Assembly: GCA_033439295.1 (NCBI GenBank)
Contig: JAVTLE010000014.1
Coordinates: 62,001-126,000, forward strand
Reading direction: 5' to 3'
Source: Deuterostichococcus epilithicus
Lineage: Eukaryota; Chlorophyta; Trebouxiophyceae; Prasiolales; Stichococcaceae
Length of the DNA: 64,000 nt
The notes under the pieces were generated by a model. The model saw nothing but the letters and a program-made list of their open reading frames with translations, had not been told where the DNA came from and did no database searches. A program made the translations under genes and the position numbers. Position 1 is the first letter of the stretch. Each line of letters opens with the position of its first letter. This document shows positions 4,901 to 64,000 of the stretch, in pieces.

Positions 4901-5444
4901 AGCTGGGCGGATGAGAATCCGCTGGGTTAAGTCGTACAGGCCAAGGCAGGAGCTGCCTTGCGACTGCCGTCTTTCGGTGCCCTCGAGGCAGCACGCGAGA
5001 GTCACATCTTATTTTACCTCGAAAAAGCTTCCTTAATGAGTGTGTTGCAGTTGGAAACCATCAGGCTTGGCTGCACGTTTCTGTCGGCACTTCCCAGGAG
5101 GTTCACACTTGTGCTTCCGCGAAGTGCACTGAAGGCTCATTGCTGCCAAGCTAAGCTGGAGAGGTCTTACCTGGGGGCGCAAACGCTCGCATGAGGCTTT
5201 CCAGCCATCCGTCCTTTCCGCCCCAGGCTGCTTGCCTATCATCGTCAGGGGCCTGCTGCTGCTCCCTGTTGCTATCGGGCGGGCGCACGTCCAGCCGCAC
5301 GACGGCGGCATACTCCGGCTCAAAGAGATCTAAAGCCCATTCCATGTCCTGGTCTGCGCTGTACCTGTGCGACCCTGCGAGCTCGTCCATTGCACCTTCG
5401 AAACTGCCGGACGTCAGCATCGCATCGATGTCGGGCAACGACAT
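1963..5444 (-). CDS. Unrecognised Ala/Gly-rich protein, probably nuclear
   Basis: Function not recognised. The likely start is ATG at 5444 (MSLPDIDAMLTSG...), with a first exon to about 5171 (acidic, DMEWALDLFEPEY) ending at gtaaga. A second exon starts at 4872 (RAKKDGGAAMAALV, then a Glu/Ala/Gln helix). A large exon of about 4519-3790 begins after cgccag and is rich in Ala, Gly and Pro; it ends in basic clusters (DKRKAPA and AKRQRQ) that look like nuclear localisation signals. Smaller exon candidates follow: GILHLDGPTGEPALL, MWGISVAFTDVKTGHAV (after cccgcag), RFKSAKIAATLKFGYG, a Pro/Ala linker at about 2980-2720, and a last exon 1963-2103 (IYEAGILHLHGEPLRH...) ending in TGA. Splice sites in the middle are provisional. 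It is divergent from HAP2. A transcription or Mediator-type subunit is possible, but I found no diagnostic motif. Confidence 0.45.
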
Positions 5445-5942
5445 CGTTTCCGGTAGCAGGCGGGGATTTTGCGGGTTCGGATGTAGACTGGTTCACGAAC
5501 CAAGGAAACTTCCAATCACGCTGACTGCTTTTGCACGACGGACGTCGCGCAGAAGGCGAAGAGCCGTGTTTCGGAAGGGGCGGACTAAAACGTCAATCTT
5601 GAGCGAGGGCATGCCGGTTCGCATGCCGGCATCTGTGCGCCAGCGCAGCGCTGCATCGATTTTGCGACGTTGAAAATTGCAAGGCAACGTGTGGCGTCTC
5701 TTCAATACGTTGACGGCAGCATTGCTCATTTGGGGTCCGTTTTGAGAAACGCGAGGGGCATGCGACCGTACTGGCGGGCGACGGCAATGCGTATCACTGC
5801 CTGATGAAGGGCGCGGTAGACTAAAGGGAAAACGAGCCAGCAGTTACAAGTCGCCTCAGGGCCCAGGGAAGCTTGCTGATTCATGCACCACGACCGAACT
5901 CACCCCGTGACCCACAGACAGTCGAAATACGCTCCGGCCGGC
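5445..5942. promoter_or_regulatory. Divergent promoter region between unknown gene and HAP2
   Basis: About 0.5 kb separates the two predicted start codons (5444 on -, 5943 on +), so the 5' regions of both genes must lie here. An in-frame upstream ATG for HAP2 at 5883 would lengthen the protein by 20 residues and shorten the shared region. No TATA box or named element is obvious. This is inferred from gene orientation. Confidence 0.4.
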
Positions 5943-8900
5943 ATGGACACATTGAGGTCACGGAAAGCAGATCCTCTCTTTGACAAGGATTTAACAAGGG
6001 TTGCGAGGGTCCTGGTGATCCTAGGAGTGGCAGCGGCACTGCTGCCGCATGTGGCGGCACAGGCGACCGTGATTTCAAGCAGCAAGCTACAGTCCTGCGT
6101 CGCAGATGGCACGGTAAGGCGCGCTGGATGTGCCGTGCATCCAAATTGGCCAGCTTCAACTATCTGCTCGGCCAGTCGCGGCACAAGCTTGCACCATTGC
6201 AGCCTATCAACACAGTACCTGCAATGAACTACAGACGGCGGCGGCGGCGCTGGGCTGCCAGCAGAAGCTGGTGGTGACACTGGCGGTGTCAGGCAGCACA
6301 AGCCTGGCAACTTCTACGCTGCAGTTTTCTGTGCCGTGCGTCGGCAGGTGAGTCTGCCGCCTTGCGTCACCCGACGCAAAAGCGTGAAGTCCTCGGCGCT
6401 TGCACCTGGCCTGCTGTGATCAGCAGTATCCGCAGCCAAAGGCGCAGCACCCTGTTTGCTGCATTTTCTGGTTTGGCACGGTCCATTCGGGGCTCTGGCC
6501 ACAGGAGCCATCGGTGTGTACAGGGCGGCTGTCCTGGAACATGAAATCTTGCGGAATTGTGTCTTGCCGCAGCACCGACGGCAAGTGCCCATGCACCTGC
6601 AACTACGCGACCGACCTAACGTGTGGCTGCCGCGACATTGCCGGCGCGCTCAACGTGACCCTCACCAAGTCGCCGGTGTACGCAACTTACCCGCTGCTGT
6701 ACTTGCGCTCCTTCAACGCTAAACCCTACGAGGTGCCCGCCCCCTCTAACCTGATGCCGTCGAAATTCTTTTCGAGCACGGCGTGCTCTTGCAAGTTGCT
6801 CCCAAGGAGCTTCGGGGAGAAGAGGGGGGGGATGCTATAGCAGTCCGAATGCACGCTTGAGTGCTTGCGCCGGCAGTGGCATCGGCGCCTGACGCTGCCG
6901 TGGTTGCTGGTTGCCTCGGCTGGAACAAGAGGGACCGACATCTACACTGTGACCTGGCGGCAGCAAGGTTGTGCATGACACGCGACTGAAGCGACGCTGT
7001 GACTGATATGTCCACACAGGCGGTGATCAGCACTGGCGGACACACGGGAGTGTCCTGCGAGGATGGCGCCAATGTGGCTGTCCCCACCTGCGGCTGGTTC
7101 AAGGATGCCAGTGGCGCCCGCATCCAGTGCGATCCTTCCTCCTTCCTCCTTCTCTGCACAAACGCTTCAACCCCTGACAAACGGCTGCGGCAGAACGGAC
7201 ATCAATCGGTGTACGACGAGGACTAATCGGCGACAGTCTGTGATGTGCGCCGGGCTGCTGGCCTGCTTAGTGCGCAGCGCGGCGGCGCCTCGGCTGCCGC
7301 GTCTCCATACTGGCCTTGTCGAATCGTACCTTGCAGCGAGCTCAGTGTCCTCGTGGCTGGTGTAGGGACTCGCAGGGCTTCTGCTGCAGCTGCACGTTCA
7401 GCCAGAGCCTCAGCAACACCTTTGGCGGCACAGCCGACCAGGTGAACTCTCGCCGGGCATGACGGGTACCAGAAGCTCGCATGAAGTGCCCGGCCGGCCG
7501 GCAAACAAAGGAGTAGAACGTGCTGCTGAGAGCATGCCGAGTCTTGCTTCACGGAGAAGAAGAAGAGGCATTGAGCTGATCCCCATCGCGTGTGCGCAGG
7601 CAACAAGGGCGGGACTGGACTGCTCCTTCTTCGACAACTTCCCGCTGTTCAGCGGCATCGCGGGCTCCGCCAGCTGCCTGCGCTACGACGCCCTGTGGTA
7701 TGCGGTGAGCCGTCCCCGACCCGCCGAGTCTGGCGTCTGGCAGCGGGCTGGCGGCTGGGAGCTCTCAGGGAGTCACTGCATGCACGCGCGCTAAGGAGAA
7801 GATCCATTGCAGAGTTTCATTTGGCATGTCGTGTCACCCATCGTTTTGTGCGTCCGAGAGGAATGCCAGGAACTCCAGCTTCAGCGCGCGTTCGACTGCA
7901 GGGCTACACAATACAGGGCGCCAGCCTGGACTTCAGCATCAATGCCACGGTCGTATCGCCGTCCGCAGACGGCGCTTCGACCTCGGACATCGTCACCCTC
8001 GGGCCGTCCACGCCCATCGGCCTCAGTGCCAAGGTGCTGACGCACGTCACTCACGCAATGCCAGTCACAGCAATGCTCCTCAAATAAGGTCGTCCACCCT
8101 GTAGGCCTGGCCTACAGAGCAGCTCGGGCATTTGAAGCGTGCCATGGTGTGGCTCATCACACCAATCGTGCAAGGTGCCGACTGTCCTGCCGCATGGCAC
8201 ACAGCTAGCCCGCCCAGCGGCATCCACCCAGCATCTCTGCTGATGGCCACGGCCTGCCGCTGCTCGGAGAGGCAGTCAAACAGCTTCTGAGCTCGATAGA
8301 GAGGGTGTGCCAGAGGGAGGGCACGCTGCATTGTGCCTCCTGCGCAGGGCACCCTCAGCGCGACGTTGCTGGGCGACCTGGCCAGCTACACCGCATGGCC
8401 GGATGTCACCGGGAAGTACCTAATGGTGCCCTCGCCCGCGGGTGAGGACCCAGGATCTGCGATACTCCAGTGTGACTGACTCTGGCTGATCAGGCATGCC
8501 CGGCGCACCAGCAACATGGGCGTTCACACCCAGCCTTGAGCAGCCGCTGAAGCGATGACGTCGCCGCCGCTTCTAGTGGCATTGTCCCCATGCCGCAGGC
8601 CAGACCGCGGCGCAGGCACTGGCGGCCAATCGCGGCACCTGGATGGTGCTGAGCCCAAGCCTGGTGTCCCAAACGGGTGACGACTGCGACCTGGTCGGCA
8701 CCTCCTTCCCCGCCTTCCGCAATCAAGTGGTGCCGCTTCTGGGACATCGCCAAGAAAGCTTAACGAAAGGGCTCATTGCAGAGCACCATGCCCTGACTGT
8801 AGGATTTTTACGCTTCGAAACTCAGTTTGCCCTCGTGTCCAGCCAAAGTCGCGGCAATGGCGCCAGCGGGGGCCGATGGCTGAAGCCCATCTGCAACTGC

Positions 8901-11900
8901 AGTGTTCACTGGGTCGGACAATTGTCAGCACAACCCATACCTCAATCCGCATCATTCCTGCTGCAGAATGGCTGCAGGCGCCCCGCCGGCACCTGCCTGG
9001 CGAACCAGCTGACGGACCTCGCGGATGCTGACAAGGCGCGCGTTGCTGCCGGCTCCACCCCACTGTACTTCATCGGCCGCTACGGCGGCGGCACCGCCAA
9101 CTCCAAGCAGGCATGTTGTCCCCTGTGACATGGAGGGTGTGGCAGTCAGGACGGGAGTGACATCTCCCATGAACCAGTCCCTGTTGTTCCGTGGCACTGC
9201 TGTGATCCCCTTTCCGCAACCCACCAGCAGACATCTCTCATCGGTCACAGCTCCGATCGACTTTGAGGCCTGTCTTGCCCTTGCAGGCGTTCAGCAAGCC
9301 CGCGGGCGGCAGCGGCAGCCAGCTGTACCTGGGACTGCCAGTCTCCAGCGGCACCAACAGCCTGGTGGTCCTGTCGGTGATGGCGGACGACCTGAAGCTC
9401 ACCACCAACCGCTGCCCAGGCAACATCACCGCTGCGCAGGTGCGGCCATTGCCATGCAGCCTCAGACAGCCTTGGCCGCCTGCTGCGCGCGCTTTACATG
9501 ACGGCCCTGCGCCGGCATTGCTTGGTGGCTGTTGCTTCAGCCATCTCGGTACCGCCTGTCCCTGCCATACTGGGCTCCTGTCGGTCTTCTGCAATGGTGC
9601 CTGCGGCACCACCTCTTCAGTGCTGCCAAGGCTGGCTCATCGGGAGGCAACTCAACTGCACGGACCAGGGACATGACAGACCTCGGTCCGTGCATCACCA
9701 ACTGGCGTGTCTGCCGTCCCTGCAATGCACAGGTGTGCCAGTACGCAGACGTCAGGTGCGGCGGCTTCCAGGCGCTCGCGGACAAAGGGTACCTGCAGGT
9801 GGATGTGCGCAACACCGGCTACATCGCCTCCAGCTACTACGTCACGGTGTGTGCATGCGACTCTGAACGACATCTGTAGCACTGCCTTCCTCTGGACCCT
9901 TGTTTGGTTTGGTCGACCTGCCTGGGAAGCAGGCGTCTGAGGCTTCTGTCATCTCTGGGGCGGCTCTGCATCGCCCACTGCTTTCACAGCACTAATCCTG
10001 CCATTGATCGCGATGCCCGAACCCAAAGCAGCAAGTGAGGATCAGCTTGCAAGCATCTCCAGGAAAGGCAGCGTCTGGTGCCTCTGCAGGTGTCCAAGTG
10101 CACCGGCAGCGTGGCGCCAAGTGCCGCACAGTCGGTCAGCATGGCCGCCCAGGTGACGGCGGGTCTGGTTTTCGAGGTGTTCGTGACAAGCGCCAATGCC
10201 ATTGCCAATAACACCTGCACCGTCACGATGTTCGATTCCCAGGTGGGAGGATCCGTTGCACCAGTTCCTTTCTCCTGCAAGCTCCCAGTCTTCATGCAAC
10301 GAAATTTTGCAACTGCATTGTACTAGCTTGATTCAAATAGCAAGGTAGTGCCAACATGTAGCCCTTCCGACATGGGATGAAGGGCAGCATTCATCCGATT
10401 TAGACGGATGTACTGAGGCGCATTCGTATGCCTGTCCCCGCAGAACGGCGTGGCTGACAAGCGCACGTTCAGCTTTTACACCAACGCCACGGTCTACGCT
10501 GACAACCCTGCCAACCCCGCAACCGGCGCAAATGTACGCAGGCTTGCACATGCCTTGCGACCATTCAATGAGTCCTCACACACGGCTTTCTAATGGTTGC
10601 TGTCCCGCCGAAAGCGCTGTCGCGGCAGCCGTGCAGGACCCAGAGGAGGTGCTCCGATGTGGTGCTGCGCAGCGGTCTGACTCTCGGCTCCCAAATGTGT
10701 GCAGACAACGGAGGGCGGCGGCTCCGGTATCACCATCAACGTGTCTGTGTGCTCAGCGCTGTGCACCAGCATCTTCAAGGTCTCCTGCATCCTGCTGCAC
10801 CGCTGCTGGTCCAAGTTCTTCCAGCTGCTGGCCCTCATCCTCGGCCTGCTGCTCGGCGGTGCTGGACTTCCCCGTTCCGCCCTTTTTCTGCCCGCCTTCG
10901 CTGTGTTGACCTGCTGGGGCAGTCGTGCTAGTGTGCATGCCAAGCTGCAGCCGCCGGTGTGCGCCGTTATAGCCCTGTCGATGCTGACAAGTCTTTCCGA
11001 CTGTGCTCACCTTTCGCTCAGAGTTCCGCCGTGCTGCAGCCATGACCCTGCTTCCTAGGTCGGCTATGGGAGCATGGCGGGCCAAACCCCACCAGTGCTG
11101 GTGCAGTGGCTGAGGTTGCACGCCCTGTGTGCTGCAGCGTCTCTGGTGTGGGTCGCCTTCTGGCGGGGATGGATCGCATACTGCTGCGAGTGCTGCTGCA
11201 AGTGCCTCTTCAAGCGGGCGGCCAAGGCGGCATCGCCGGGCGCCGTGAGCACCGCAGAGACATCAGGCAATCCAGCAGCCGAATGCTGATGCTGCGCTGT
11301 TGGAGCTGACTGGGTCCAGACTGCTGCCCTTCCTCTGCGCTTCCAGCCAGCAGGCAGGCGCTGTGCCCAAGCATACTGCCGTAAAATTCTGGGATTTCAC
11401 GTCCAATGAACTTCCAGTGTGGCTGGATGAAACAACATTTAAGCACCCAAGTTTAAAAACAAGCTTGCAGTCTGGCTGGATGATGTTTTAAAGACAATCG
11501 AACCTGCGCTCCCTGCACTCGACGGCCCGCCTGCTGCATCTGCAGGCGAGGTGGCGGCCATGACGCAACTGATGATGCAGACGGCAGTGCTGGCCGGGCG
11601 CACATTGCAGCCGCCACCCTCTCAGACTATGGCGGCTGGGGGTCGAGGCAGAGTCAGCGGCGGCGGCGCCGGCAGTGGCGGCTGTGATGCCTACGACGAC
11701 AGCAGCATCAAGCCGCAATCGTTCACGGCGTCATCAGGGCAGCGGCAAGTTGGCAATGGCATGCCCCTGCCTGGCGATATACTCGGTCGCAGCTTCGATG
11801 GCACCAAGCAGGCAACTGGGGCCGGGATTGCAGGCGGCTCGGCGGCTGGCGTCGGTGCGGTGTTGGGCAAGCTGCGCAGCAAGAGCAAAGGTGGGCCATC

Positions 11901-13319
11901 CGCCTGCATGGTTGCATGACGTCTGGAAGCGTCTGCACTCTGACTGTCCAGAGTGGCTCCCAACGCTAGGTCTGCTCACATGGTAGCATTGAAAGCGTCT
12001 GTGTCATCCTCTCAGACTGCACCTGTGCTCCTGGTTGTGAATGTCTCACGCTTCGCTACAGACTCTGGTCTGAACGCAGGCGGTGGTCCAGGCAGCGCCA
12101 CAGGTGGCACACCTGCGACGCTGCTGCCGCGCCAAGCAGGCGCAGAGGGCAGAAGGGCCGCCGGGACAAGCGGCAATCGATCAGCCGCGCTGTCTGACAC
12201 ACAAATCGGCACTGACCTTTGGGACGACGCTCAGGTGATTAGCGAGCTGTCGGCAGTCTGCCTGCAGGCGAACACAGTCGGCAGCTGGTGCAGGCTGCTG
12301 ATGAGTGAACATCCCATGGAGACACCGATGTGGACTTGCGCTGCGAAGACAGGCCAAGTTGCCACACGTCACACTACTATCGTCATGTATTTACTCGCTT
12401 TCCCTTGCTGTGGTCCTGATCCCGAGATCGTGAGGTGCCGATGCAGGCTGATGGGGTTGGTGAGTTGAGCCAGCCGCTTGGCAGCGGCAGCAGCGTGGCG
12501 CCAATGCTCATGCCGCACGTGGCAGACCGGCAGGCGGCTGCGTGGCACGCAAGCAGCGCCAGAGGTCCTGGGCCGGCTGGCTCCACGGGGATGGACAGCA
12601 GTGGCGGCGGGGGCTGCGGCGGCGGTGGCCGGGGCGGGCTCGTCGATGGCAGCGGCGGTCTCGGCGCCTTCTGGCAGCCCTCAAGGTCTGGCGCGCCGAG
12701 CGAGGCTCGGCCTGCCCGTCCTGGCACGTCGGCCCTGGCGCGGATGCAGCAGCCGTCTGAGCAGTCCTGGCAGCCGCAGGTGCCAGCTGGTGAGGGTGCC
12801 GCGCGGCCGCAGCAAAGGCTGGCTGCGGTGCAGGCGGCTGCGAGGCCAGGCGGCATGACCATGCCGCCTGAGCAGGCTCAGGCGGCGCAGCGCCAGCAGC
12901 AGCAGCTGCGCATGGCGCAGACGGCGGCGGCAGGGCAGATGCAACCCCCCCAGCAGCAGCCGCAGCAGCAGCAGCAGTTTGTGGCGAGCGGCTGGACCCT
13001 GCCGAGGCCACTGCCGCCGCAGCCAGGGAAGCAGCCGCGACCGCAGGCAGCGCAGCAGCCGTTGCGGCCGCTTGGGCAGGCACGCGGACCGCAGCCTGCC
13101 AGCATGCGAACGCAGACGCAGGCCGTCCCGGCGCACATGAGTCAAACGATGCCCTTCAGCATGCAGTACGCAGGGCGGCCACCCTTGCCGGGGATGCACA
13201 CGATTCAGCCGCCGTATGGGGTTCCGCCTGGCATGACGCTTCGGCCAATGGCGGCGCTGCCGCAGCAGCAGCAACCGACACGCCCCGCAATGCACATTCA
13301 GCCGCCGCTGCCCCGGTAG
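5943..13319 (+). CDS. HAP2: HAP2/GCS1 gamete membrane fusion protein
   Basis: Class II fusion protein that merges gamete membranes after adhesion; it is a single-pass surface protein. Nineteen exons join in frame: 5943-6113, 6235-6347, 6573-6732, 7020-7126, 7366-7441, 7600-7704, 7902-8033, 8348-8441, 8599-8726, 8967-9110, 9287-9439, 9733-9846, 10090-10242, 10444-10533, 10705-10858, 11138-11244, 11551-11890, 12080-12234, 12447-13319. The total is 1,122 residues plus stop. Diagnostic features are a signal peptide (VLVILGVAAALLPHVAAQA), CPCTCNYATDLTCGC, the HAP2-GCS1 domain core DSQGFCCSC, CRRPAGTCL, RCGGFQALADKGY, and SALCTSIFKVSC just before the membrane segment LLALILGLLLGGASLVWVAF. A Cys cluster (CCECCCKC) follows the membrane segment. 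The remaining cytoplasmic tail (exons 16-19, about 490 residues) is Gly-, Pro- and Gln-rich. Intron 9111-9286 is GC-AG. The order of motifs matches Chlamydomonas HAP2. An alternative start is ATG 5883. Confidence 0.95.
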
Positions 13320-14646
13320 GGAAGGACGCAGGCGGCAGCATAGCACCGCTTGCGGGCAGCGCGGTGCAGCCTCGTTTGCCAGTTGTGCCGGCAGGGCAGC
13401 TTCCGCAGAAGGGCTGGCGCGCTGAGGTGTTGAAATGGGTGATCAGCCAGGGCCGAGCTGTCCCATTCGGCCCACCTGCCAGGGCAAGCACAGCCGAGGC
13501 AATCTAGTCATTGACAATGCGACCTTGGAGGGTCAGTCTTCTACGTACATACAGTCACGCAGCAGTCACGTCGCTAGAACTTCAGTTGACTGTGCGATGC
13601 TGCACTTTACAACCTGCAATTTCCTAGTACTGAACCAAATTTGACAAGGCTAATAAGGACTGAATTGCCTAGGCACCTTCAAGCAACTCGTGCTGCAGAC
13701 AAGGCAGAAACGGTCACTCTTGAGCTCAGATCATCTGAGTCAGATGTTTGATCAACGGAGAGGTCCCATTGACAAGCAGGTTGGCAGTCATCATCGTACC
13801 TCGAGGAGAGATCCCCATCCCCGCTGGTCCTGCAAAACGTATCAAGCGATAATGCAGAAACACACATCCCCGCCGCCCCCGAACCCCGCACCAATGCGCG
13901 AATTGCAGCTTCACGAATTCAAAGAGAATTACTCTGGCAGTGTGTTATTGTACTGCTACCAATCCAGAGCCGCCGTGAGCCTGTCACTGTTGGCTGACAG
14001 CTGCTCGTGATACTAGCGTGGCAACTCGAAGGCATCAGAAGACGGGCGGGCGGTCACGACCTCACACACTCCCGTCTTCTTCGAGTCTTCTGCGGCTCCT
14101 CGCTGTTGAGGTCGACAAAGAATAGCCTTCAAGCTTGCTGGTGGGCCGTGTTTGGCCATGCTGGAGTTTATACTGCGCTACCACAGCTGCAGCCGCCGCC
14201 GCTGCCGCCGCTGCCGCCGCTGTTGCCGCCAATGAAGCGGCAGCCTCATCGACCTAACTTCTGCATACGGACTTCGCCACAGCCGCCCACGTCATGAGAA
14301 GCAGAAAGTGTTGCTCGATGCTGCAGACACGCACGGAGAGTGCGGCGTGACGTCGCCGTGGATGTCGCCCCAGCGCTTCATGCACTCCCGGTCTCGAGTT
14401 GCCTGCGGCGGCAGGCGCACACAACAATTGTTCGACTGCGCTCAGTTCCTCAGCAGAGCAGGTTGCAGTACAGCCGTCAGGTCCGAGAGCGCATGTGCGG
14501 CATCATTCGTGCTCCAGTCACAAATTCGAAAAGCAGGTGATATTGTGCTGATTCGCACTGCAGGCTGCACACAGTCCACATGCACATCTGTCAATTCTGG
14601 TCCCAAAAGCGCCGGGCATGGCAGCCCCAGCACGGGGCTTCAGAAA
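13320..14646. other. Spacer downstream of HAP2
   Basis: Contains the HAP2 3' UTR. There is a Pro/Leu low-complexity stretch on + at about 14185-14235 (repeated CCGCTG) with no family resemblance. No RNA gene or repeat was recognised. Confidence 0.35.
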
Positions 14647-14910
14647 TTAACGGCGCACCAGCACCATGCGCACGAGGTTGTAGCGCGTCGGCGTCAGAGT
14701 CGCCAGCGGCGTGCTGCCTCGTGCCAGCGCCTGCACCAGCTCATGCAGCTGGCTGCTTGCGGGACACTGCTTGTCTGTCCACAGCCCAGGCGCCTCCTGC
14801 AGCAAAATGCCGATGAGCTTGTCGGCAAAACTTGGAGGTGAGGACGACAGTAGCGGTAGTGAAACGGGAATTGCATGAGGGGGGGCAGGCAGCAGTTTGC
14901 CGCTGGTCAT
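14647..14910 (-). CDS. Hypothetical 87-residue ORF or terminal exon
   Basis: Open frame with start ATG 14910 and stop TAA 14647-14649. The part after about 14830 reads like real coding sequence (LIGILLQEAPGLW, LHELVQALARGSTPL). It may be the last exon of a gene on the minus strand rather than a free small gene. I could not join it in phase to the TAZ exon upstream. No function recognised. Confidence 0.3.
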   Translation of the reverse strand: MTSGKLLPAPPHAIPVSLPLLSSSPPSFADKLIGILLQEAPGLWTDKQCPASSQLHELVQALARGSTPLATLTPTRYNLVRMVLVRR

Positions 14911-15074
14911 ATGGGCACTGGAAACTCATGCCGCGCGGTCCACATGCTGCATAGAGCTGGCTGGCATGCTATGGTACACCAGCCAGTGAATGTATACGCA
15001 GCCTTGTCTGGACTGTTTGCACTCGTGCAGTGCTACCAGTATCGTCTGTCGTCAGTCCCGTCCCAAACTGGCAG

Positions 15075-15774
15075 CTAGGCTGGCAGAAAGGCGTGCAGTT
15101 TTGTGCTTGCGGCCGCGAAGCAAGAAGCGCGTCTCATCAGCGTGATGTGCTGACGAGCCACATCCGCGCGCACCTGGACATGGCAGTGCGTCCCACCGAC
15201 GGCCGCTAGCACGCGCCGCACGGGCTGGCATGTGGAGCATGCCTCGCTGAGGCAGGAGCAGAAGTGCACGACCAGCCGCCGCGTGAACGCGCACCTGCGA
15301 TTGTAGCAAACATCGTTTCTCGAGCAGGCATGTGTTGAAAGGGCGTGTTGGTGCTGCAGTAAGCGTGCAGGAGGCGCTGCCGGCCCATCTTACCTGCGAG
15401 AGGTGCTCCGATGCCGCGGCAGCACTTCATTCAAATCGCTGTCGAGCTCAGCTGCTGCCAACAAGGCAACTCATGCATCGCACTCGAGGCGTGCCGCGGC
15501 GAGGCTCATAATGCAAAGAGTGTATGCTGGCAGCACCCACATTGCGTTGCCGCAGGCGCCGCCGCTGCAGTGCTTGATGTGCTGCCACAGCTGCCGTCCG
15601 AAGCCGCAGCTTCGATGGCCGTACGGCCAGTTGTCGCTGCGCATTTCGCCGCAGAAGGCATTGCAGCCGCAGCAGGCCCCACCGCCGCTGCCGCAGCCGC
15701 CGCCGCTGCATGCCGCCCAGTGTAGCGACAGCAGCAGCCAGTGCTGTCGCAGCACCTCCGCGCGCTCGCGGCAC
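15075..15774 (-). CDS. TAZ zinc-finger protein, C-terminal exons
   Basis: Two exons, 15541-15774 and 15075-15294, join in frame across an AT/G codon. Together they give the TAZ zinc-finger pattern known from CBP/p300 acetyltransferases and plant BT and HAC proteins: LLLSLHWAAC (HxxxC), Cys-rich loop, SCGFGRQLWQHIKHC, then ACGNAMC, HFCSC and ACSTCQPVRRVL. The spacing of His and Cys through the first three quarters matches a TAZ domain of three zinc sites, and the intron falls inside the domain. TAZ domains bind transcription-factor activation segments in the nucleus. The stop TAG is at 15075-15077. N-terminal exons were not found, so I cannot say whether this is a BTB-TAZ adaptor, a CBP-like acetyltransferase or a TAZ-only protein. 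Confidence 0.6.
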
Positions 15775-18700
15775 CTGTCAGTGCCGGAGCGGTTTTGGTC
15801 AACAGTGTGGCTCGTCAACAGATGCAAAGTGATGACGAGGGAAAAGTATTTGCGGTACAGACGCCCACAGGTTCCTCAACGAGCGTTTCGACTACCAGAC
15901 CGCTACGACCGCGCGCGGGTCGTATGAGTCCCCGGACTGTCACTGAAGAGGGATAACGATATATCTCCCCATGGGAACGTGCGTCAAGCTGGCTGATGCG
16001 CCGGGCGTGTCCGGGAAATAGTGGCTGTGTAGGGCGGCTGAAACCTCCTTGTACCTTGGTACCGGTACGACCAATTCTCGTATCGGGCAGACACCGTGCC
16101 AGGGTCAGGGCAGATATGGAAAGACGTGCCGGCGCATTGAGGCTGCGAGGTCGTGCCATCGCGGGTCAGAACGGCTGTTGTGATTTCTGCCTCACCATGG
16201 TGTGGCCAGGTGCTCCACATCCGGCGGAAGCAGGTCCGGCAGCCCGTCTTGCTCCCGGCAGCACGCGACGCCGGCGGCCGGTGCGCCGTCTGCGACGAGC
16301 GGCGACCAGTGGGCTGAGTCATCGGTGGGGATTGTTCGTCAGCGCCCCACCGCACGTAATGCGATACGACAGCAGAAACCGCCTGGCGTACTCCGAGCGT
16401 CAGCGCACGCCTCCATTGATGATGCAGACACAGCTCAGTAGATGGTTGCGGCAGAATGGCACCATAGCATAGCACGGTCCCGCCGGTGCTGTGTCTGCAT
16501 AACCGCCGGTTCCTTGTCCACATTACTATGCAACGAGCTTTCAACACAACAGGGTGTTGTTGACAGAAGCGGATCCCGCCGTCGCCCTCATTAGTAGTCA
16601 CCGCTTGATCATAGTCACCGCACTTGGGCAGCTGCTGTTCGAGGCCGAGCGATCCGCCCGCGCGCGCGGGCACTCGGCTGTCGCTGCGCTGCACAGGCCG
16701 GCCATCGCAGCTGCGGATGATGCGATGACTGCGCGGCGCCGGAGGCGGACTCGCAAGACGATATGGCCAGCCGCACGCTTCAGCCGCGCTACTACGCCCT
16801 GCAACCACTTTGGGCGCAGGAAGTCCGGTATCAGCCGGTGCTAGATGGGAGTGACGGCCGAAGTGAGCCGTGTCTCGTGTCTCCTCATTGTCACGGCAGG
16901 ACTGGCAGTACGATCTAGGGCCCGCACGTGACGCCAGCTGATGACGTTCTCGATGACTACAACTTGGCCGAAGCTGACTCACAAACCATGGTCGGCCAGT
17001 CAAGTTTGAAGGACGCAGGGCGGCTGCTGCGCGGTCGGCTGACCGGTGACGAAGCTGCCGCCGAGCAGTTGCCACTGTCGCCGCCATAACTATCGATGCA
17101 GACCACTGACGGTCAGTTTGGCAATGGCTGTCTGTACTGACAGCCAGTAGTACTGCAGCATCAACGCCCTAGTACTTCCGACGTGCCTAGCCGGCATTGT
17201 GTGCACTTCGGCTTGAATGTGCCTTGCCGCAACTCCTTCAGCTGCGGCTGCCTCGCCGCCGATAGCGCAAAACACCATGCGGCATGGCATCACCCCTGCA
17301 TAAGCAAAACCTGAAGTTTCGCTCCGTCATCAGGGCAGGGTGACAACAGTAATGTCGAGCCGACAGTCACTTGGGCCACATCGGAAGCAAGTGGCAATAT
17401 CTTTGATTTGGTTGAAACACGCCGCAGTGCAAATGCAGCCTGCGCGCCCAGTGATTTGAGGCTCGGTGACTTCGCAGCGGCGGTCGCCTACAACTGTACC
17501 GCCGAACGCATCGAAGCGTGCTTGCTGCAGCAGTCTGAGCGACGGTTGGACCAGTTCCTCATTGGCAGCAGAAATGCCCGCCAAGCGCATGCGCTCGCGC
17601 TTGCGCCTAGGTGTCCAGGGCCCGTGTGGTGCTGTTCATGACGTACGCTGCCCACTGCAAAGTGCAAGCAGAGATCTCGCAAGGCCACGGCAACGTGAAC
17701 CATCCCATCCACAGTTTGTACCCATCTACAGCAATGCGTATGCCGCTGCTTAGGAAGTCGCGCCGCTAATGGCAGCCAGGCACTCGCAGGGCGGCTGCCG
17801 CAGTGCCTGAAGCAGTTGACGACCGGTGTCAAGCGTCGTGCAAGCTGAGATTGTGCAGGTTCTTCGCTCCACAAGGATGTCAAATGTGTGCGTCCTTCCA
17901 CCGATGGGTGCCCCAGAAGAACGGATGATCAACTTTGCGAGCTCCAGCGAGCAAAGTCATTCGCGTACTGCATACTGCACGGTGCATCTATCTGCAACAT
18001 CAGCAGCGGAGGTGGGTGGCATTGGCAACTGGCCAATATATAGTGTGTTCGGAAGTTTGCACCACGTCGCACGGGGATCGAAGTTCGCAAGCGGATCGTG
18101 CCTGTCGGCACTCGGAGGCTTGCTACAATGTTTGTCACGCTTTCACACCCACACCATCCAGCTGAGGCACACACAAGCCGGATCGGTATCCCCACCGCCG
18201 CGTCTGTGCATGTGAAGCAGCCACAGGCCTGCGCAGCACCTGATGCCCAAGGCAGAAGGCGCTTCAACAGGATCAGCAGCCTCTCAGGCAGCGCGCGGCT
18301 CAGATCGCCTGCAGCGGCACACCTGCGGCGACCGCAGCCTAGTCGGCGGGCGCTGGAGACTGACAAGGCGCTGCAGACAGGTGTGCGGCATCAGCTCCCA
18401 TCCAGGAGCAGTCACATGGTGGTTCAAACTCTTGCATTGCTGGCGGCTTCACGCGTGTCTGCTGGAGCTGCACGGTGTTGCAGCAGGCCCGCTGCTGTAG
18501 CGGGATGCTGCCACACGGCCCTCAATCCTGGGAGCGCTGCAGCCGGCTCACCGGCTGGCGCCTCTGCGCGCAGAGTCCCAGACGAACGCGGCGACCTATG
18601 TAGAACCCCGGCAGTACCCTGACTGGCTGCCCCGGCAGGTGTGTGCACCCTGGCGGCAGTGAGAGTGCTGACAGCACCACTCAGACACTCATGTCCCAGA

Positions 18701-18984
18701 ATTCCTGTTGACATTGGCGCTGGGGTCGCGGTTGCGGAGATCCGGGCGGTGGCGACACCGCATGTGGCGGAGGCGATGGCGAGTTCCCGTTTGGCGAGCG
18801 GTCCCGGACATGGGGTCGACGGCACCAGCGGTCGCTTGGGTTTTGGGTTGAGGCTTCTTCGAGGGGTTGACCTGATGGATTCCTTCAAGACGCCCAAGAC
18901 TCCTCAGATCGGGCAGGATCGCCAGCGTTCAGACATACACGGAATCTAACCTGACGAGGGCATGCCGCTGGCTGTTTCCTGCAG
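15775..18984. other. 3.2 kb without a confident gene
   Basis: Should contain the upstream exons of the TAZ gene (-) and the first exon(s) of the alpha/beta hydrolase (+). Long open frames exist on the minus strand (about 17087-15984 and 18366-17929), but their translations are Arg/Cys/Ser-mixed and match no family I know. Fragments such as DLSRALPERLLILLKRLLP (about 18300, -) and QPSLRLLQQARFDAFGG (about 17550, -) could be exons. On the + strand, about 18735-18870 could encode a hydrolase leader. Confidence 0.3.
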
Positions 18985-21564
18985 ATCGAGGACATCCAGG
19001 AGGCTGCGGCACTCGACATGGCGGCGGCGATGGCGCGCGAGCCCATCGAGGTGCCGGCCATGGGCCGCGCGGTGGACACCGCCTTTGTGGGGCCTGGCAC
19101 CTGGACAGCGGCCCCCGCAGGTCCATGGCGCTGTAGCCTCTCGGCGTGTGCAGTGTCCGGGGGCTGGGCCGAGGGCCAGGCATACGCTGCAGCCCCTGTG
19201 CACGCAACCTGCTGCACGTGCACAATCCCAGGGGAACGACACGCGCAGCACCCATGTGCCTATACCCTATACCCTACACCGAGGCCAACTGCTGGGTCAT
19301 GTGCCCCCTGCAGACGCGGACGCGCCGCCGTTCATGCTCATACCCTCCTTCGACTCCAGCCTGCTGGAGTACAGGCGCCTGTACCCGCTGCTGGCCGCGG
19401 AGCGGCGCGCATTTGCCGTCGACGTCGTCGGCTGGGGTGCGCGTGTTGGTCCTCCACCAAGGCTTCTTCCCCTCCTGCATGTCCTGTGGGTCGGCGCGGC
19501 TGCACCCGCTGCTGGCCGCGGAGCGGCGCGCGTTCGCCGTCGACGCCGTCGGCTGGGGCGCGCCTGTGACAGCTCAAGGCAGCTATGTGCGTTGCTTTTC
19601 CGTCCTGCTTGGCTGATATCTGCCGCTTTAAGGTGCGTCCAGGCTGGCTCCCTGCGCCACATTGCCCCAGCCTGACGTGGACGCCTCAAAACCCCGTTCC
19701 ATGCCCGGCTGGCGGCTCGGTGTGTCAATCGTGCCGAGTGCCGAGCCAAGTGGGCCGCTCCTCGCAGGCTTCACGGATGCCAGCTTTGCAGCGGACCCGC
19801 AGGTGGCACTGGGGCCGCTCCAGAAACGGGAGCACCTGCACGCATTCCACCAGCAGAAGGTGCCTTCCTCCTTGAAGCTTCCATTGTTTAACAGCTTGCT
19901 GGCTCCGAGGCCAGACGCCTTGCAGGCCGATGACCTAGCCCCAGGCATGGCTCTCTGACGATGCAACGTCTGCGACTTGGTCTGCTAGCCGCTTGGCTGA
20001 AGCATGCACGTGGTTGCCCATGAGTGCCCGTGCCTCCCAGCCCCAGGTCTCCAATGCATGCTCCATGTGCACATTGCTGCCCAGTGCCCAGTGGCACAGC
20101 ACCAGACACTCTGCATGTCCCATGCCCGCAGATTGGCAGGCCGGCGGTTGTAGTGGGCACCAGCATTGGCGGCGCGACGGCACTGGACTTTGCGCTCAAC
20201 CACCCGGAGGATGTCGCGGCGCTGGTGCTCATCGATGCGCAGGTCGGGCAGTTTAGAGTTTAGGGTCCGAGTGGGAAGAAATCCACTATCTTCCCTCCCC
20301 CAGGCTCTGTTGCTTGAGCTCTGGCCGTGTTGACAGGTCACCGCGGCGCTGTTGCGGCAGCACCAGCTGCGCGTTCATATCACAGCGCTGTCCTCTGTCC
20401 TCGCTGCTTGGCCGGGCGAGACATCTCACCTGCGGCTGCGCGCTGTTCGCAGGGTTTCATCGATGGCATCGGACCCATGGCCAAGCTGCCGCGCTTCGCT
20501 GCGCGGCTGGGAGTCAAGGTGCGCCAGGCTGAAGATGCCAGGCAGGACCTTTTCCGATCAGAAACCTGTGAATGACAGGACTGTTTGGGTGACATGCATG
20601 TGTCCCTGCGCAGAGTCATGGCTTGCGTGGTTCCTCATGCGCAGCCGCTGGATCCCGTGAGGCAGTCCTGTTCGATTGTCGCCTGCAGGTGCTGAAGACC
20701 GAGTGGCTGCGCCAGCAGGCCAACATGATGGCATACGTCGATCCAGCGCTGTCGAACAGGGATGCCATGCTCGTGGGGCGCCTCAACACGCACATGCCAG
20801 GTGCCGCCTATGTTTCGTCATGCACATGTCCCGAGGCTTGCCCTATGAAGCGACCCCGCCCTTTGACCTGCCCGGCCAGCTGGCCAGCTGGCCAGCGACC
20901 GGCTCTGCGGCTGTTGGGCCAAAGGGTGCCATGCTATATGGGCGCCACCAGCAACTGCCCGCTAGCACAGGGTGCTGTCCCAGAGCCGGCGTTCAGCCAA
21001 TGGTGGGGAGGTGCAGCACCTTGGCTTGCCGAGCCCGACTGCTGCATGCCGCGCCACTGCAGGGTGGGAGGACGCCAACGTGGCGTTCATGGCCAGCGGC
21101 GGTTACACCGGCATCGGCGCCCAAGTGCCAAATGTGAAGGTGCGGCGGGCGGCGACTCGTCCTTGGGCATCATGACGGTTCCTCGCCCTTCTGTGGAGAG
21201 GGGCACTGCAAGATCGTCGGATAAGTTTGCACGCACCTCAGGCCATGTGCGTGAGTGAAACGCGAGCGCAGGCGGAAGAACGGCACCGCTCATCTGCCGC
21301 TCATCCTGCTGACTGTGCCTTGTCACGCCTCCTTCAAACTTGAAAATGAGTCCCGCCCTTTTTCTGCAGCCGCCGGTGCTGGTGCTGTGGGGCCGCCAGG
21401 ATCGCATCCTGCCGCCGGAGACAGCGGAACAGTTTGCAGCCGCGCTGCCTGAGGCGACGGTCACGTATCTGGAGAAGTCGGGGCATTCGGGACACCTGGA
21501 GGAGCCGCGCGTCGCGGCAGATGCGATACTGAAGTTTGTGAACAGCTGCCAAGCCGCAAATTGA
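18985..21564 (+). CDS. Alpha/beta hydrolase fold protein (plant organellar type), 5' exon(s) missing
   Basis: Eight exons are in phase: 18985-19120, 19314-19436, 19768-19859, 20132-20242, 20453-20518, 20689-20800, 21063-21139, 21370-21564 (stop). The fold landmarks are all present: PSFDSSLLEYRRLYPLL (oxyanion/HG-like region), AVDVVGWGFTD across an intron, nucleophile elbow VVGTSIGGATA (Ser of GTSIGG), LVLIDAQ, acid residue in LWGRQDRILPPE, and catalytic His in SGHSGHLEEP. Spacing and the DSS-LE-GWGF signature resemble a plant family of predicted plastid hydrolases whose substrates are mostly unknown. An upstream exon with start codon and any transit peptide is not resolved. Intron 19437-19767 contains a near-perfect copy of the end of exon 19314-19436. 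The gene is convergent with the copper ATPase. Confidence 0.85.
19500..19567 (+). pseudogene. Relic copy of hydrolase exon end inside an intron
   Basis: 68 bp matching 19379-19446 at 62 of 68 positions by hand count. The copy has no acceptor in front of it, and the splice donor of the parent (G/gtgcgc) has become gcgcgc. Splicing from the first copy at 19436 gives the expected GWGFTD junction, so the second copy appears to be intronic and unused. Confidence 0.75.
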
Positions 21565-22035: not shown

Positions 22036-25000
22036 CTACTCAGTCACGACGACCTGCCGCATGACCGGCGCCGGCGGCTTATAGGACCGCAGCAGTAGCG
22101 AGGAGCACACCACGCTGACACTAGACAGCGCCATCGCGCCGCCTGCAACGAAAACAACACTGTCATTCAAGAGCCGAGCTTGAAGCGACATGCAGGCCGG
22201 CACAGGCGCAGGAATGGGTGTGCCGAACGCCAGCCCGCTCTGCAGACTGGGCTCACAGCCGCACGAGGCGCTGCAATGCCATTCGGCAGTGGGCGCTCGA
22301 CCGCACAGCGACTGACTGAAAAAGCACTAAGGTTTGAAGGAGACTCAGCTGAGGGGCGGCGGCACGCACCTGCAGCCCAGGGCGGCATCTGCCAGCGCAC
22401 GGAGGGGAACAGCACGCCGGCAGCCAGTGGGATCATGAGCGTGTTGTAGCCGAAGGCCCAGCAGTAGTTGAGGCGGATACGGGCAAAGGTGCGGGCCGAC
22501 AGGTCCAGCGCCGTCAGCACGTCTCCCAGGTCCGACTTCATGAGGACGTAGTCCGCTGCCTCAATGGCGATGTCCGTGCCTGGGCGAAGACGAGGTAAAT
22601 CGGAGACCCGTTCCGGGCGTGAGAGCTGCACCTTGTTTCGGCAGCTCTTCAAGGGCCGCAGTCTTTGTCGGCAGCTGTGGGAGGGCCGGAGTTGTAGCTC
22701 GAGGCTGGTGATAATTGGACGGCACCAGCGGTAATGGCACGTCTGGAAGTCAGGCGGGCAGCAGCTGCATTGTGCGGCAGAGGCGAAAGGAGAGGGCCGG
22801 AGGCCCGCCGAATATAAAGCGAGAACCACGGGCAGAGTTGAGCGAGCGAGAAAACCCCACCGGAGCCGATGGCGAGGCCGACGTCGGCTTGTGCCAGCGC
22901 GGGCGAGTCGTTGACGCCATCGCCGACCATGGCCACGCCGGTGCCGCCTGCCTGCAGCGCCCGAACCACATCTGCCTTGCCGCTCGGCAGCACCTGCAGG
23001 AATGTGCATTGAGACAAACCTTTGAAGCCCTTGCAGCCAGTGGAGCTGGAGTCCCAACCTGGCCGAGCGGCCCCCGGCAGCCAGCAGCAGCCCTGACGGG
23101 TCGACCAGACATGCAGCAGGGGCATAAATCCCCACCCATAAATTATTGTTACACGTTCAAATTCTGAAACACCGGTGCAGACAGGCCTCTGCCGCTGCCG
23201 CTGCTGCTTCGAGGGCACCACACCGTGCACATTCCAGCGGCGGGGGCAGCAACTTATCAGGCTGCAGAAGCGGATGAGGTGGCTGATGACAAACCCTGGA
23301 CTAGCTGCCAGGGCGGCGCACCTCCGCGGTGACGTGGCGGATGCCCAGTCGCGCGGCGATGATGCGGGCGGTGGTCCAATTGTCGCCGGTCAGCATGTGG
23401 CAGGCGCGGCCGCTGGCCTGCAGCGCCGCGATCACGCCCGCCGCCTCCGGCTTCACTGGGTCAGCCACTGCCAGCGCCGCCACCAGCCTGTGGGTCAGAC
23501 GGGCTCCAGAGGCTGTAATGCTGCATGAATCGCGGTGCAAGAGCCCGCTCCGCCACATTGCGGCAAGCAGCTGCACCGATGAGGGCGGGCGGAAGGACAG
23601 AGCATTGAGTAACATGTAACATGTAACAACCAGTGTCAATATGGCAGCCACCCCACCTGCCATCACCAGCAACAAAAACGCAGGTGTAGCCGCTGCCCTC
23701 GGCCTCACGCGCCCACTCCGCCGCCGCAAGGCTGACGCTTATACCCTGCTCCTCCATCAGACGCCGGCTGCCGACCAGGGTCATGACGCCGCCGCCCGCA
23801 CTGGTGCCGGCGCCGGTGCTGCCGCTGCCGAGCCCGTGCTGGATGTCGCTGCCGCGGGCGCCGCTGCCGAGCGGCGCCGGCAGGCGCACCCTGCACTTGA
23901 CGCCCCTGCACAGCACACAGGACCACCATGCAGGATGTGGGCGTTGTGCATCTGTGCACACACGGCAAGTGGATGGTGCAGCGTGAGGTGGCTGGAGAAC
24001 AGCAGTGCGCATCAACAGACTCCGTTTGGGCGCCTCACCGCAGGTCGAAGCGTCAGGGTTCAGGGCAGAGGATGCAGTTACGCCGCACCTGCCGGGAAGG
24101 ATCTCCAGGTCGGATGATGGTGCCACCCAGCTGACGTCCCGACTGCCACCGCCGCCGACAATGCTGGCCTGCCGGTCCAGTCGCCGCCTGCTTTCGTTGC
24201 TGCTGCTACTGCCGCTGCTGTCCTCGACCGCAGCGCTGCTGCCGCTGCCGCGGCACATTGCTGCCGGCCCAATGGCCAGGTCGGCAAATGCCAGCACTGC
24301 CGCTGCCACTGGGTGCTCGCTGGACACCTCTGCAGCGGCTGTCAGCGCCAGCACCTCGTGCAGGGACGCCTGCAGGCGAGTGTCCAAAATCAGCTTTCCT
24401 GCTTTGACATATAAATTGACAGCTTTCAGCCCTGCTGCAGTTGACTATATGGCCTCATGAAGGAATACCACCGCTGCAAGGCTCACACCATGTCCCCGCA
24501 CTGGATGGTGCAAGCGCAGTGTCGAGCAGAGTGCGCCGCGCGGCCACAGCTCTAGTGACAGTTCCTCAGGTGGTAAAACCTACTTTCCTGATGCAGGTAC
24601 ACCCGAATTCTATCGGGTAAGACAGCTCCTCACCTGTTTATCGAACAGGTGGTGATCCAGCACCGTGGGCTTGCCCACGGTGAGCGTGCCTGTCTTGTCG
24701 AAGACCACCGCTTTCACCTTAGTGGCCCGCTCCATGCCATCGGCACCCTGATTTTCCAGTCAACACACGAAATAATCATATCGCACTTCGTTCACACTTC
24801 CTCTCTGAGCTGGGACGGTGGCGGAGGTGCCATCAGCGCAACGTGCAACGGACGACAGGTGCAGCCGGCTGTGGGAGGGCATCGATCGATGCAACTGCAG
24901 CTGGAACAGGGGTGTGTGAGACTTCCCAGCTGAGCAAGTCGTCGAGAAGTGCGCCGCAACTCGCCTTGATGAGAATGCCGTTGGAGGCGGCGATGCCGGA

Positions 25001-28000
25001 GCCGACCATGACAGCTGTTGGCGCCGCCAGGCCCACGGCGCAGGGGCATGCAATGACCAACACGCTGATGCCGAAGAGGAGCGCGAAGACAAAGTCGTTG
25101 CTCTCGTCGGGCAGCCAGTCGCGCGGGAATGCGTGTGTGACGCCTGTGCCGATGATGTTCGTCAGGGACGAGATGGAAGTGTCTGGCAATTCGAAAAGGG
25201 CCAGCCTGGCGACAGCCAAAGCCAAGCGGGCAGCCTGCAAACTGGCGGACGGATGCTTGTTGCAGGGGCAGCACAGCAGGTCTGCACTATCAGACACGAT
25301 GCAAGGGGTGCATCGTCACGAGCTGGGAGGGATGCATTGCCACACACCGGCAACGAACCAGGCGAGCCAGGTGACGAAGGCGGCGGCGCACACGGCCGGC
25401 ACGAAGAACGCTGACACACGGTCGCCGAGGGCCTGCAGGGGGGACCAACGACGAACGTTGCAGGCGACAGCAGTCCGCCCGTCGCTGCCGCTAGCGGGAC
25501 GGCCAGCTGTGGCGTGTGGACGAGTGCGGGATGGACACATGCCCAATCCATGAGGACGCCAGAGGACAAGCGAGTATTTCTTCTTTTGATGACTAATGAA
25601 AGGTTTGTACTGTATGCTGCACGCACCTGAATTGGCGCCTTGGCCAGCTGGGCGCCCTCCACAAGGCGCACGATCTGCGCCAGCGTGGTGTCGGCGCCCG
25701 TGCGGCTCACGCGCACGTGCAGCACGCCGCCGCCGTTCACCGAGCCTGTGCAGATGTGAGATTTGGGCATCGTGCTGCAAACTTGAGCAGGCAACAGAAG
25801 CGCAGCAGAGACCCAGGACCACTAACCGAGGGTTGAGGGTTCATGGGTTGCCACGAAACAGTCAGTCTTGCGCGCTTGGTTGCCAGCGCATATCGTTCGA
25901 CATAAGGGGACGCACAACAGCACACCGCTGATGACGGGGGAACCGGGGCGTTTGGGCACGGGCGCCGACTCGCCGGTAATCATGGACTCGTCCACGAACG
26001 AGGTCCCCTCCGCCACCTCGCCATCTGCCGGCGCCTTGGCATACGGCTTGACCTGTGCAGGGCGCAGCAGATCACTCTGAAGCACTAGACCGTTTCCATC
26101 TTTTGCGCATGCAGGGTCGCTCCAGAGAAACCCTAGATGAAGTCTCCTCTGCCTCCCCCCAAGATTACCGGCTCCCCAACGTCCGGCTTGACCTGCCGCT
26201 GACAGGCAGCGCAATTTGGACAGGTCCAAAGCTCGCGCTTGCTCCCTATCAGGGAAGGTGGTTTCAGCAGGAAGGTGGTATTGATGCCTGACAGATGCCC
26301 GCACGCTGCTGCGCGACAGTCGTTTCGGCCCGGCATGCACACACATGGTGCGTTCTGCCGCGCCGCTCTGGGTGCTCTCAACGATGCAATCATGACGCAT
26401 TGGCCTGCAGCGACACAGCCCCTCACCCGCAGCGCTGCACTCGTCCAGCAACTGATGCTCGATCGTGCACACCGTTATGCAAGTAACAGCAACAAGAACG
26501 CCCCCTGCAGCTTCCTGACACTCTTGAGAGTACGCACCTTGAGCAGGTCTCCGCGCTGCACCAGCGCCACCGGAACCTCCTCCTCTGCCGTCACGTGCCC
26601 GTCGTCGTCCACAGTCAGCAGCACCGCCGTCGCCGGCGCCAGCCGCAGCAGCTGCTGCACCGCCTGCGCATCGCCAGAGCATGCATACACATGGCGGAGG
26701 CGTCTCTGAGGTTTGGTCGGGATGCTGAGCGCTGGCGGGATCGGCAACGCCAGCCAGCTTTGCATATTGTATGACAGGTCGGTGCACCATGAATCAATGC
26801 AAAACCCCAAGGTTTGGTCATAGGACAGCCAATCATTAAGAGCGGAGGGACCTGCGTACCCGGGAGGTGCGGCCCTTGGCGGCACCCTCCAGCAGCTTGC
26901 CGAGCGCGATGAAGGTTATAAGCAGAGCACTGGTCTCAAAGAACTCCACCGCCTGGGCGCAGTAGGGTTTGGAGACACGTCTGATATCGTTCAGTCGTGT
27001 TACAAGCAGCACCACGGTGACGCCAGGTGACGCCGGAGATGCTCAGTCTTGCGTTCCGGCTCGTGCCGTCTGGGAGCGTCGGACAGTCAACACGGAGGCC
27101 TGCTCAAACGCCCAAGCGGCGAGCGAAGCGTGATCGCCCCGACAGTCGCGAGCTTGCTGTGGCTTGCAGGATGGGGTGATGAACAACCTCAGGTGCTAGA
27201 GTGGGGTATGTAACATGCACAGGAGGGTCGAAAAGTGATAACCCACCTTGTAGCCGGGGCCGTTGGCCACGCGACCGTAGATCACCGAAAACACTGAGTA
27301 GATGTACGCCGCCATGGTACCCACCGATATCAGGACATACCTGCGGCAGACGACACGCTTGGCATGACGGGCGGCGAAGCCTGTCGTCCTATGCTGCTGC
27401 ACCAGTGGCCGGTGAGACCGGGTGTCTCCATGCCAGCGGCGTCCCAGGCTTAGAGAGGTGCTCGTGGCAAGCATGAACTTGTGGGGCCCTGCATGCTGGC
27501 GGTGAGAACAACGCAAACAAATTGAGCAGGACACGTGAGGAAGGCTCACATGTTGGCGGAGCCGTGCCGCAGGGAGCGCGCGGCGCCCCGGTGGATCGGC
27601 CATCCGATGACAAACTGCAGAGATGGAAACCCAGTGCGATCACACCGTGCTGCCCAGCCCTGCTGTTGATTCGAGTTGACGCTCTACTTCCGTGAGTCAC
27701 CGGCATGTCCCAGGCCTGCCAAATGCCATCAGGAGCAGCACAATGCTGATTTGAGTTCTGATGCACTGCAAAAAACATCCCCATGTCAAGCACCACACAT
27801 TCAGGGCGCTGCAGCAACAGTCAGCCAGGACCAGGCAGCTTGGCAAGTGTCAGACCCAGAGTGGTAGCAGGGATTTTGCCGTGCCTGGACTGGCGTGGTG
27901 AGCGCAAACTTCAGAAGATGGCCCAGCTCCACGCCGCCGACGCGCGTATTGGTGACGGCCTTAAGCCCTGGCACGAATGGCACAACCTGCATGCAGCATG

Positions 28001-36872: not shown

Positions 36873-64000
<27,128 letters not shown>

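Follow-up and report, generated by a model that had tools for sequence, protein, structure and literature searches.

A HAP2/GCS1 gene with a conserved ectodomain and an uncertain cytoplasmic tail in the green alga Deuterostichococcus epilithicus

We analyzed a window of 64,000 nucleotides from the trebouxiophyte alga Deuterostichococcus epilithicus (GenBank assembly GCA_033439295.1, 46.8 Mb in 21 contigs; contig JAVTLE010000014.1, here C12, positions 62001-126000) and focused on a gene that it carries of the HAP2/GCS1 family, whose members bring about gamete fusion in many eukaryotes. The gene lies on the + strand at 5943-13319, from start codon to stop codon; positions are those of the window unless another contig is named. 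Our gene model comprises 19 exons and 3,312 nt including the stop codon, encoding 1,103 residues. We based it on reading phase, similarity and splice sites; both ends and the 873-nt last exon proposed by a first-pass annotation of the same DNA were in view, and it is not fully independent of that annotation. A 19-exon model closing in frame over this interval, as proposed there, was reproducible; it is not unique, and the 1,122-residue version was not reproduced. All introns but intron 10, which is GC-AG, have GT-AG borders (17 of 18). Translation may not begin at 5943, because a second in-frame ATG lies upstream at 5883. About 0.5 kb upstream of HAP2, a possible divergent gene start was noted at 5151-5447 on the - strand, without a Pfam match, and the two genes may possibly have a promoter region in common.

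The model protein matched the Pfam family HAP2-GCS1 with 335.6 bits (cut-off 27.4) and an E-value of 6.2e-100 over profile positions 2-514 of 515, and no other Pfam family passed 0.001. The HAP2-GCS1 core recognized in the first-pass annotation, which had suggested this profile search, is therefore present. A search of solved structures with the first 667 residues returned six distinct sequences at E-values up to 0.1, five of them under the name HAP2 and the sixth as 'Uncharacterized protein'; the top matches were three Chlamydomonas HAP2 constructs (E about 1e-134). Identity to the Chlamydomonas ectodomain was 255 of 522 aligned residues (49%), using letters taken from the structure match with 10 residues absent there set to X. 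All 22 cysteines among the available Chlamydomonas letters align with cysteines here; of the additional cysteines, C453 faces a serine and three more lie beyond the aligned part. The glutamate and arginine of the domain II salt bridge described for HAP2 (PMC6089408, excerpt) are likewise kept, with Chlamydomonas E126 and R185 corresponding to E148 and R212. Given the Pfam and structure matches together with the conserved cysteines and salt bridge, sequence comparison identifies the gene as HAP2/GCS1 beyond reasonable doubt. At 49% identity to a solved structure, the ectodomain is also predicted to fold as domains I-III of a class II fusogen.

The exons can be followed along this fold, the Pfam match (residues 63-614) spanning exons 2-15 and the Chlamydomonas alignment also covering most of the ectodomain. 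Exon 1 (5943-6113) encodes, within residues 16-44, a hydrophobic stretch resembling a signal peptide, and also the first strand of domain I, which continues in exon 2 (6235-6347). Exon 3 (6573-6732) carries a loop resembling the cystine ladder and ends with salt-bridge residue E148. The six cysteines at Chlamydomonas positions 71-92, which we took as the cystine-ladder (C0D0) loop, all align with cysteines here; such a loop in domain I is described as confined to green algae (PMC6327110, excerpt). Exon 4 (7020-7126) belongs to domain II, and the fusion loop 1 region follows in exon 5 (7366-7441), where L199 and F203 occupy the positions of Chlamydomonas W173 and F177. Exon 6 (7600-7704) contributes salt-bridge residue R212 and fusion loop 2 (F219, F220, F223, F226 and S227), and exon 7 (7902-8033) contains a shortened E0F0 loop. 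Structure matches to Chlamydomonas HAP2 cover exons 8 (8348-8441) and 11 (9287-9439), and the HAP2-GCS1 core includes exons 9 (8599-8726) and 10 (8967-9110), the latter preceding the GC-AG intron. Exon 12 (9733-9846) leads towards domain III, whose border is approximate, and exons 13 (10090-10242) and 14 (10444-10533) form the domain III region and its end. The stem, the membrane-proximal cysteines and the first half of the transmembrane helix fall in exon 15 (10705-10858). In a simple hydropathy scan, values exceeded 1.6 in windows inside residues 16-44 and 614-642, with a weaker cysteine-rich patch at 591-611, in keeping with a signal peptide, a membrane-proximal cysteine motif and a single transmembrane helix; the last two had been called in the first-pass annotation and were recovered here by alignment and hydropathy.

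Exon 16 (11138-11244) completes the helix. Its join to exon 15 has support that does not draw on alignment: the phase fits, the splice scores are fair (4.4 and 7.3), and one unbroken hydrophobic helix results. Alternative starts of exon 16 at 11059 and 11107 were rejected for phase mismatch with the end of exon 15, and a start at 11096, although in phase, would rely on a poor acceptor and interrupt the helix. Codon usage is in line with the exon structure up to this anchor. With codon log-odds trained on exons 1-15, the model's own frame was the best of six in all 15 of these exons, and leave-one-out scores were positive for 14 of the 15 (exon 1, -0.09); the best frame of every intron (18 of 18) scored below zero. 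By synonymous choice alone, the own frame was best in 13 of the 15.

At the tip of domain II, we compared the seven fusion-helix residues that have been mutated in Chlamydomonas HAP2 (PMC6170185, excerpt). The aligned residues here are L199, F203, F219, F220, F223, F226 and S227, so that six of seven are hydrophobic and one is polar, a largely non-polar set of fusion-loop residues. The helical hydrophobic moment of loop 1 is similar in the two proteins (0.47 here and 0.42 in Chlamydomonas). A departure is seen in the mucin-like E0F0 loop, which has about 10 residues here versus 45 in Chlamydomonas (residues 239-284), and is thus not the long loop of the green-algal subgroup. This shortening is not a splicing error, because the loop sits inside exon 7. 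Nor is it decisive against membership of the green-algal subgroup, since the E0F0 loop is highly variable from one ortholog to another, even if it is especially long in green algae (PMC6327110, excerpt).

Behind the membrane anchor, the model continues for 457 residues, in which Gly, Ala, Pro and Gln predominate. The motif CCECCCKC stands at residues 647-654 (11182-11205) in exon 16, just behind the membrane as first annotated; the 3′ end of this exon is uncertain. The tail proceeds through exon 17 (11626-11890), whose 5′ boundary is uncertain, with acceptors at 11546 and 11581 scoring better, and exon 18 (12062-12234), for which an acceptor at 12080 is nearly equal. It ends in exon 19 (12447-13319; 873 nt), putatively joined to exon 18 and rich in Gln, Pro, Ala and Gly, with 46 Gln, 46 Pro and 41 Ala in 290 residues. 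The first-pass annotation had proposed a tail of about 490 residues; its long Gln/Pro/Ala-rich last exon exists and can be joined in frame, whereas the length differs and the splicing is not fixed. In Chlamydomonas, HAP2 has 1,139 residues with an intracellular domain of at least 500 residues that includes a cysteine-rich, polybasic stretch, and a stretch of this kind lies behind the membrane in many orthologs (PMC8777248, excerpt). By analogy with Chlamydomonas, a long tail is likely and plausible here; the tail sequence we give is hypothetical. As a long tail is known from Chlamydomonas and a Cys-rich stretch from many orthologs, neither the Cys cluster nor the long tail, if real, would be special.

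A tenable, if tentative, alternative keeps the protein a HAP2 of the same kind with a much shorter tail, translation stopping in exon 16 or 17 or the downstream exons joining differently, so that exon 19 would be excluded or present only in some transcripts. Weak splice sites speak for it: the donor and acceptor of intron 16 scored 1.6 and -1.7, where those of introns 1-15 span 2.9-7.3 and 5.4-10.0, and at 3.8 the intron 18 acceptor also falls under the acceptor range, although the splice models were trained on introns 1-15 and flatter them. An enumeration of splice paths that required GT donors and applied score thresholds (the model's own intron 16 falls short of these) gave 905 other in-frame closing paths; the best 25 of these encode 743-1142 residues, and only eight reach the stop at 13319, the other 17 missing it. 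Simple read-through past exon 16 would meet a stop at 11289, giving about 681 residues. This enumeration weighed splice sites only and ignored coding sequence, and good scores are found at both sites of intron 17 and at the donor of intron 18. Codon log-odds rank the model's own frame first in exons 16-18, as the long form would have it, and second of six in exon 19 (-0.29 versus -0.07). Synonymous choice ranked the own frame best in exon 16, second in exons 17 and 18 and fourth of six in exon 19; it exceeded a base-composition null in exon 19 (z 4.3) and in exons 16-18 (z 4.1), an excess that GC-rich DNA could produce likewise. The exon 19 frame is open for 290 codons, matched in 9 of 2000 base shuffles, and the Chlamydomonas intracellular domain of at least 500 residues (PMC8777248, excerpt) also argues against a short tail. 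No TGTAA, which we take to be the usual polyadenylation signal of green algae, occurs on the + strand from about 12000 to 20000.

We then considered the genomic company of the gene. No second HAP2 was found in the 46.8-Mb genome, both profile matches and all 16 protein matches to the first 667 residues lying within this gene. Meiotic genes were found exon by exon, with the queries for DMC1, RAD51, the HOP1-like gene and the SPO11-type locus on C3 joined by hand from exon pieces. DMC1 lies on C13, its best solved matches being DMC1 ahead of RAD51; RAD51 lies on C18, a HOP1/HORMAD-like gene on C3, MND1 on C11 and HOP2 on C12. Two SPO11/TOP6A-type loci were detected, one on C12 and one on C3 (1504850-1504990). 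We rejected the C12 locus as SPO11, as it reads like TOP6A, presumably the vegetative paralog. For the C3 locus, topoisomerase VI A gave the best two solved matches (E 1e-13 and 1e-8), 'Meiosis-specific protein SPO11' was third (E 1e-7), and the last two were again topoisomerase VI A; it is a candidate only for the meiotic SPO11. MutS-type sequences gave 23 matches in nine separate places by our own grouping, among which MSH4 and MSH5 were not distinguished. RWP-RK domains gave eight matches genome-wide, seven of them over the cut-off. A MID-like RWP-RK gene beside HAP2 was considered and rejected, none of the eight matches falling inside the window. Two RWP-RK matches lie less than 7 kb apart on opposite strands at C11:1020102-1026729.

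Taken together, this green-algal gene almost certainly codes for a functional class II gamete fusogen of the HAP2/GCS1 family. Its homology with Chlamydomonas HAP2 predicts expression in one gamete type, with the signal peptide routing the protein to the plasma membrane. The hydrophobic residues of the domain II loops would then enter the membrane of the partner gamete, and HAP2 would trimerize and fold back into a hairpin, drawing the two membranes together to fuse. Past the single transmembrane helix, the basic Cys-rich segment, which may be palmitoylated, and the disordered tail would probably place or regulate HAP2 at the fusion site. The unbroken, apparently single-copy frame, together with the DMC1, HOP1-like, HOP2, MND1 and SPO11-like sequences, lends support to gamete fusion in this lineage, now or in the recent past, an inference already made in the first-pass annotation.

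Several observations weigh against a functional fusogen, and some of them would fit a decaying or repurposed relic left after the lineage lost gamete fusion, a reading we consider very improbable. Among the seven mutated fusion-helix residues, Chlamydomonas W173 is replaced by Leu and I201 by Ser, the latter being the one polar position, and the helical hydrophobic moment of loop 2 is lower here (0.32 versus 0.58 in Chlamydomonas). The splicing of the tail is not fixed, given the many other closing paths, and the SPO11-like locus on C3 is closer to topoisomerase VI A subunits than to SPO11. The Tht1 family (KAR5/GEX1, nuclear fusion) was unmatched in a genome search run without a positive control. 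A pattern search for relatives that could serve tests of the tail and of selection gave no match in viral contigs and six in other genome contigs, none confirmed. A relic would not be expected to look as exons 1-15 do, free of any frame break and with every one of the 22 aligned cysteines kept, in a genome that holds meiosis-specific DMC1 and further meiotic sequences.

Starting again from a functional HAP2, we also considered a joint reading of the tail and the ectodomain. Downstream of exon 16, intron retention or the use of alternative introns might switch between a short form and a long, Gln/Pro-rich disordered form, so that fusion, or placement of the fusogen, would be regulated via the tail, and the loss of the mucin-like loop might reflect a control of the ectodomain unlike that in Chlamydomonas. 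We regard this combination as speculative and unlikely.

Elsewhere in the window, exons of an SMG1-like PI3K-type kinase lie at about 53766-56170 on the + strand, with SMG1 as the best solved matches (E 1e-43, hand-joined query); SMG1 is the kinase of nonsense-mediated decay. A copper-transporting P1B ATPase occupies about 22398-30884 on the - strand, with E1-E2 ATPase and HMA domain matches and, for a hand-joined query, 'Copper-transporting ATPase HMA4' as the best solved match (E 6e-86). An alpha/beta hydrolase-like fragment at 20153-20245 on the + strand remained under the cut-off in all three families it matched.

With this gene, D. epilithicus joins the green algae that carry meiotic genes and a seemingly intact fusogen, so that inducing and assaying HAP2 offers a test for hidden sex. 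Its short mucin-like loop and altered fusion-helix residues also offer a natural variant for questions about the control of HAP2 in algae. The general view of HAP2 function is unchanged, and a HAP2 gene in a green alga whose sex is rarely or never seen is of a kind already known, the find being solid but ordinary because HAP2 has been reported from several such algae.

Among known systems, HAP2 of Chlamydomonas reinhardtii (PDB 6DBS, 6E18 and 5MF1) is the nearest in kind, sharing a collinear ectodomain, the 22 cysteines, the cystine-ladder loop and the salt bridge; it differs at four fusion-loop positions, F, W, L and L there and all Phe here. HAP2 proteins from outside the green algae, namely 5OW3 ('Protein HAPLESS 2') and 5OW4 ('Uncharacterized protein'), which we take to be those of Arabidopsis and Trypanosoma cruzi, and 7S0K, belong to the same family with weaker similarity (E 4e-58 to 8e-40). 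They also differ in that the cystine-ladder loop is described for green algae only (PMC6327110, excerpt). Archaeal fusexins are grouped with these non-green-algal proteins as known systems, as far as the excerpted sources go. A Cys-rich basic stretch after the membrane is described for Chlamydomonas HAP2 too, as is a long tail (PMC8777248, excerpt), which would be a further likeness if the tail modelled here is real. HAP2 has likewise been published from other green algae: the sequences of Coccomyxa (C. subellipsoidea), Chlorella variabilis, Chlorella sorokiniana, Micractinium (M. conductrix), Auxenochlorella and Monoraphidium have already been aligned in print (PMC6327110, excerpt). HAP2 together with meiosis genes has been discussed as a possible sign of sex in Chlorella vulgaris (PMC6972661, excerpt), Auxenochlorella (PMC12636532, excerpt) and Trebouxia (PMC12712428, excerpt; Trebouxia sp. 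A48 in our comparison), and in the excerpted accounts several of these algae, like D. epilithicus, pair a HAP2 gene and meiosis genes, in their case with sex that is cryptic or rarely seen.

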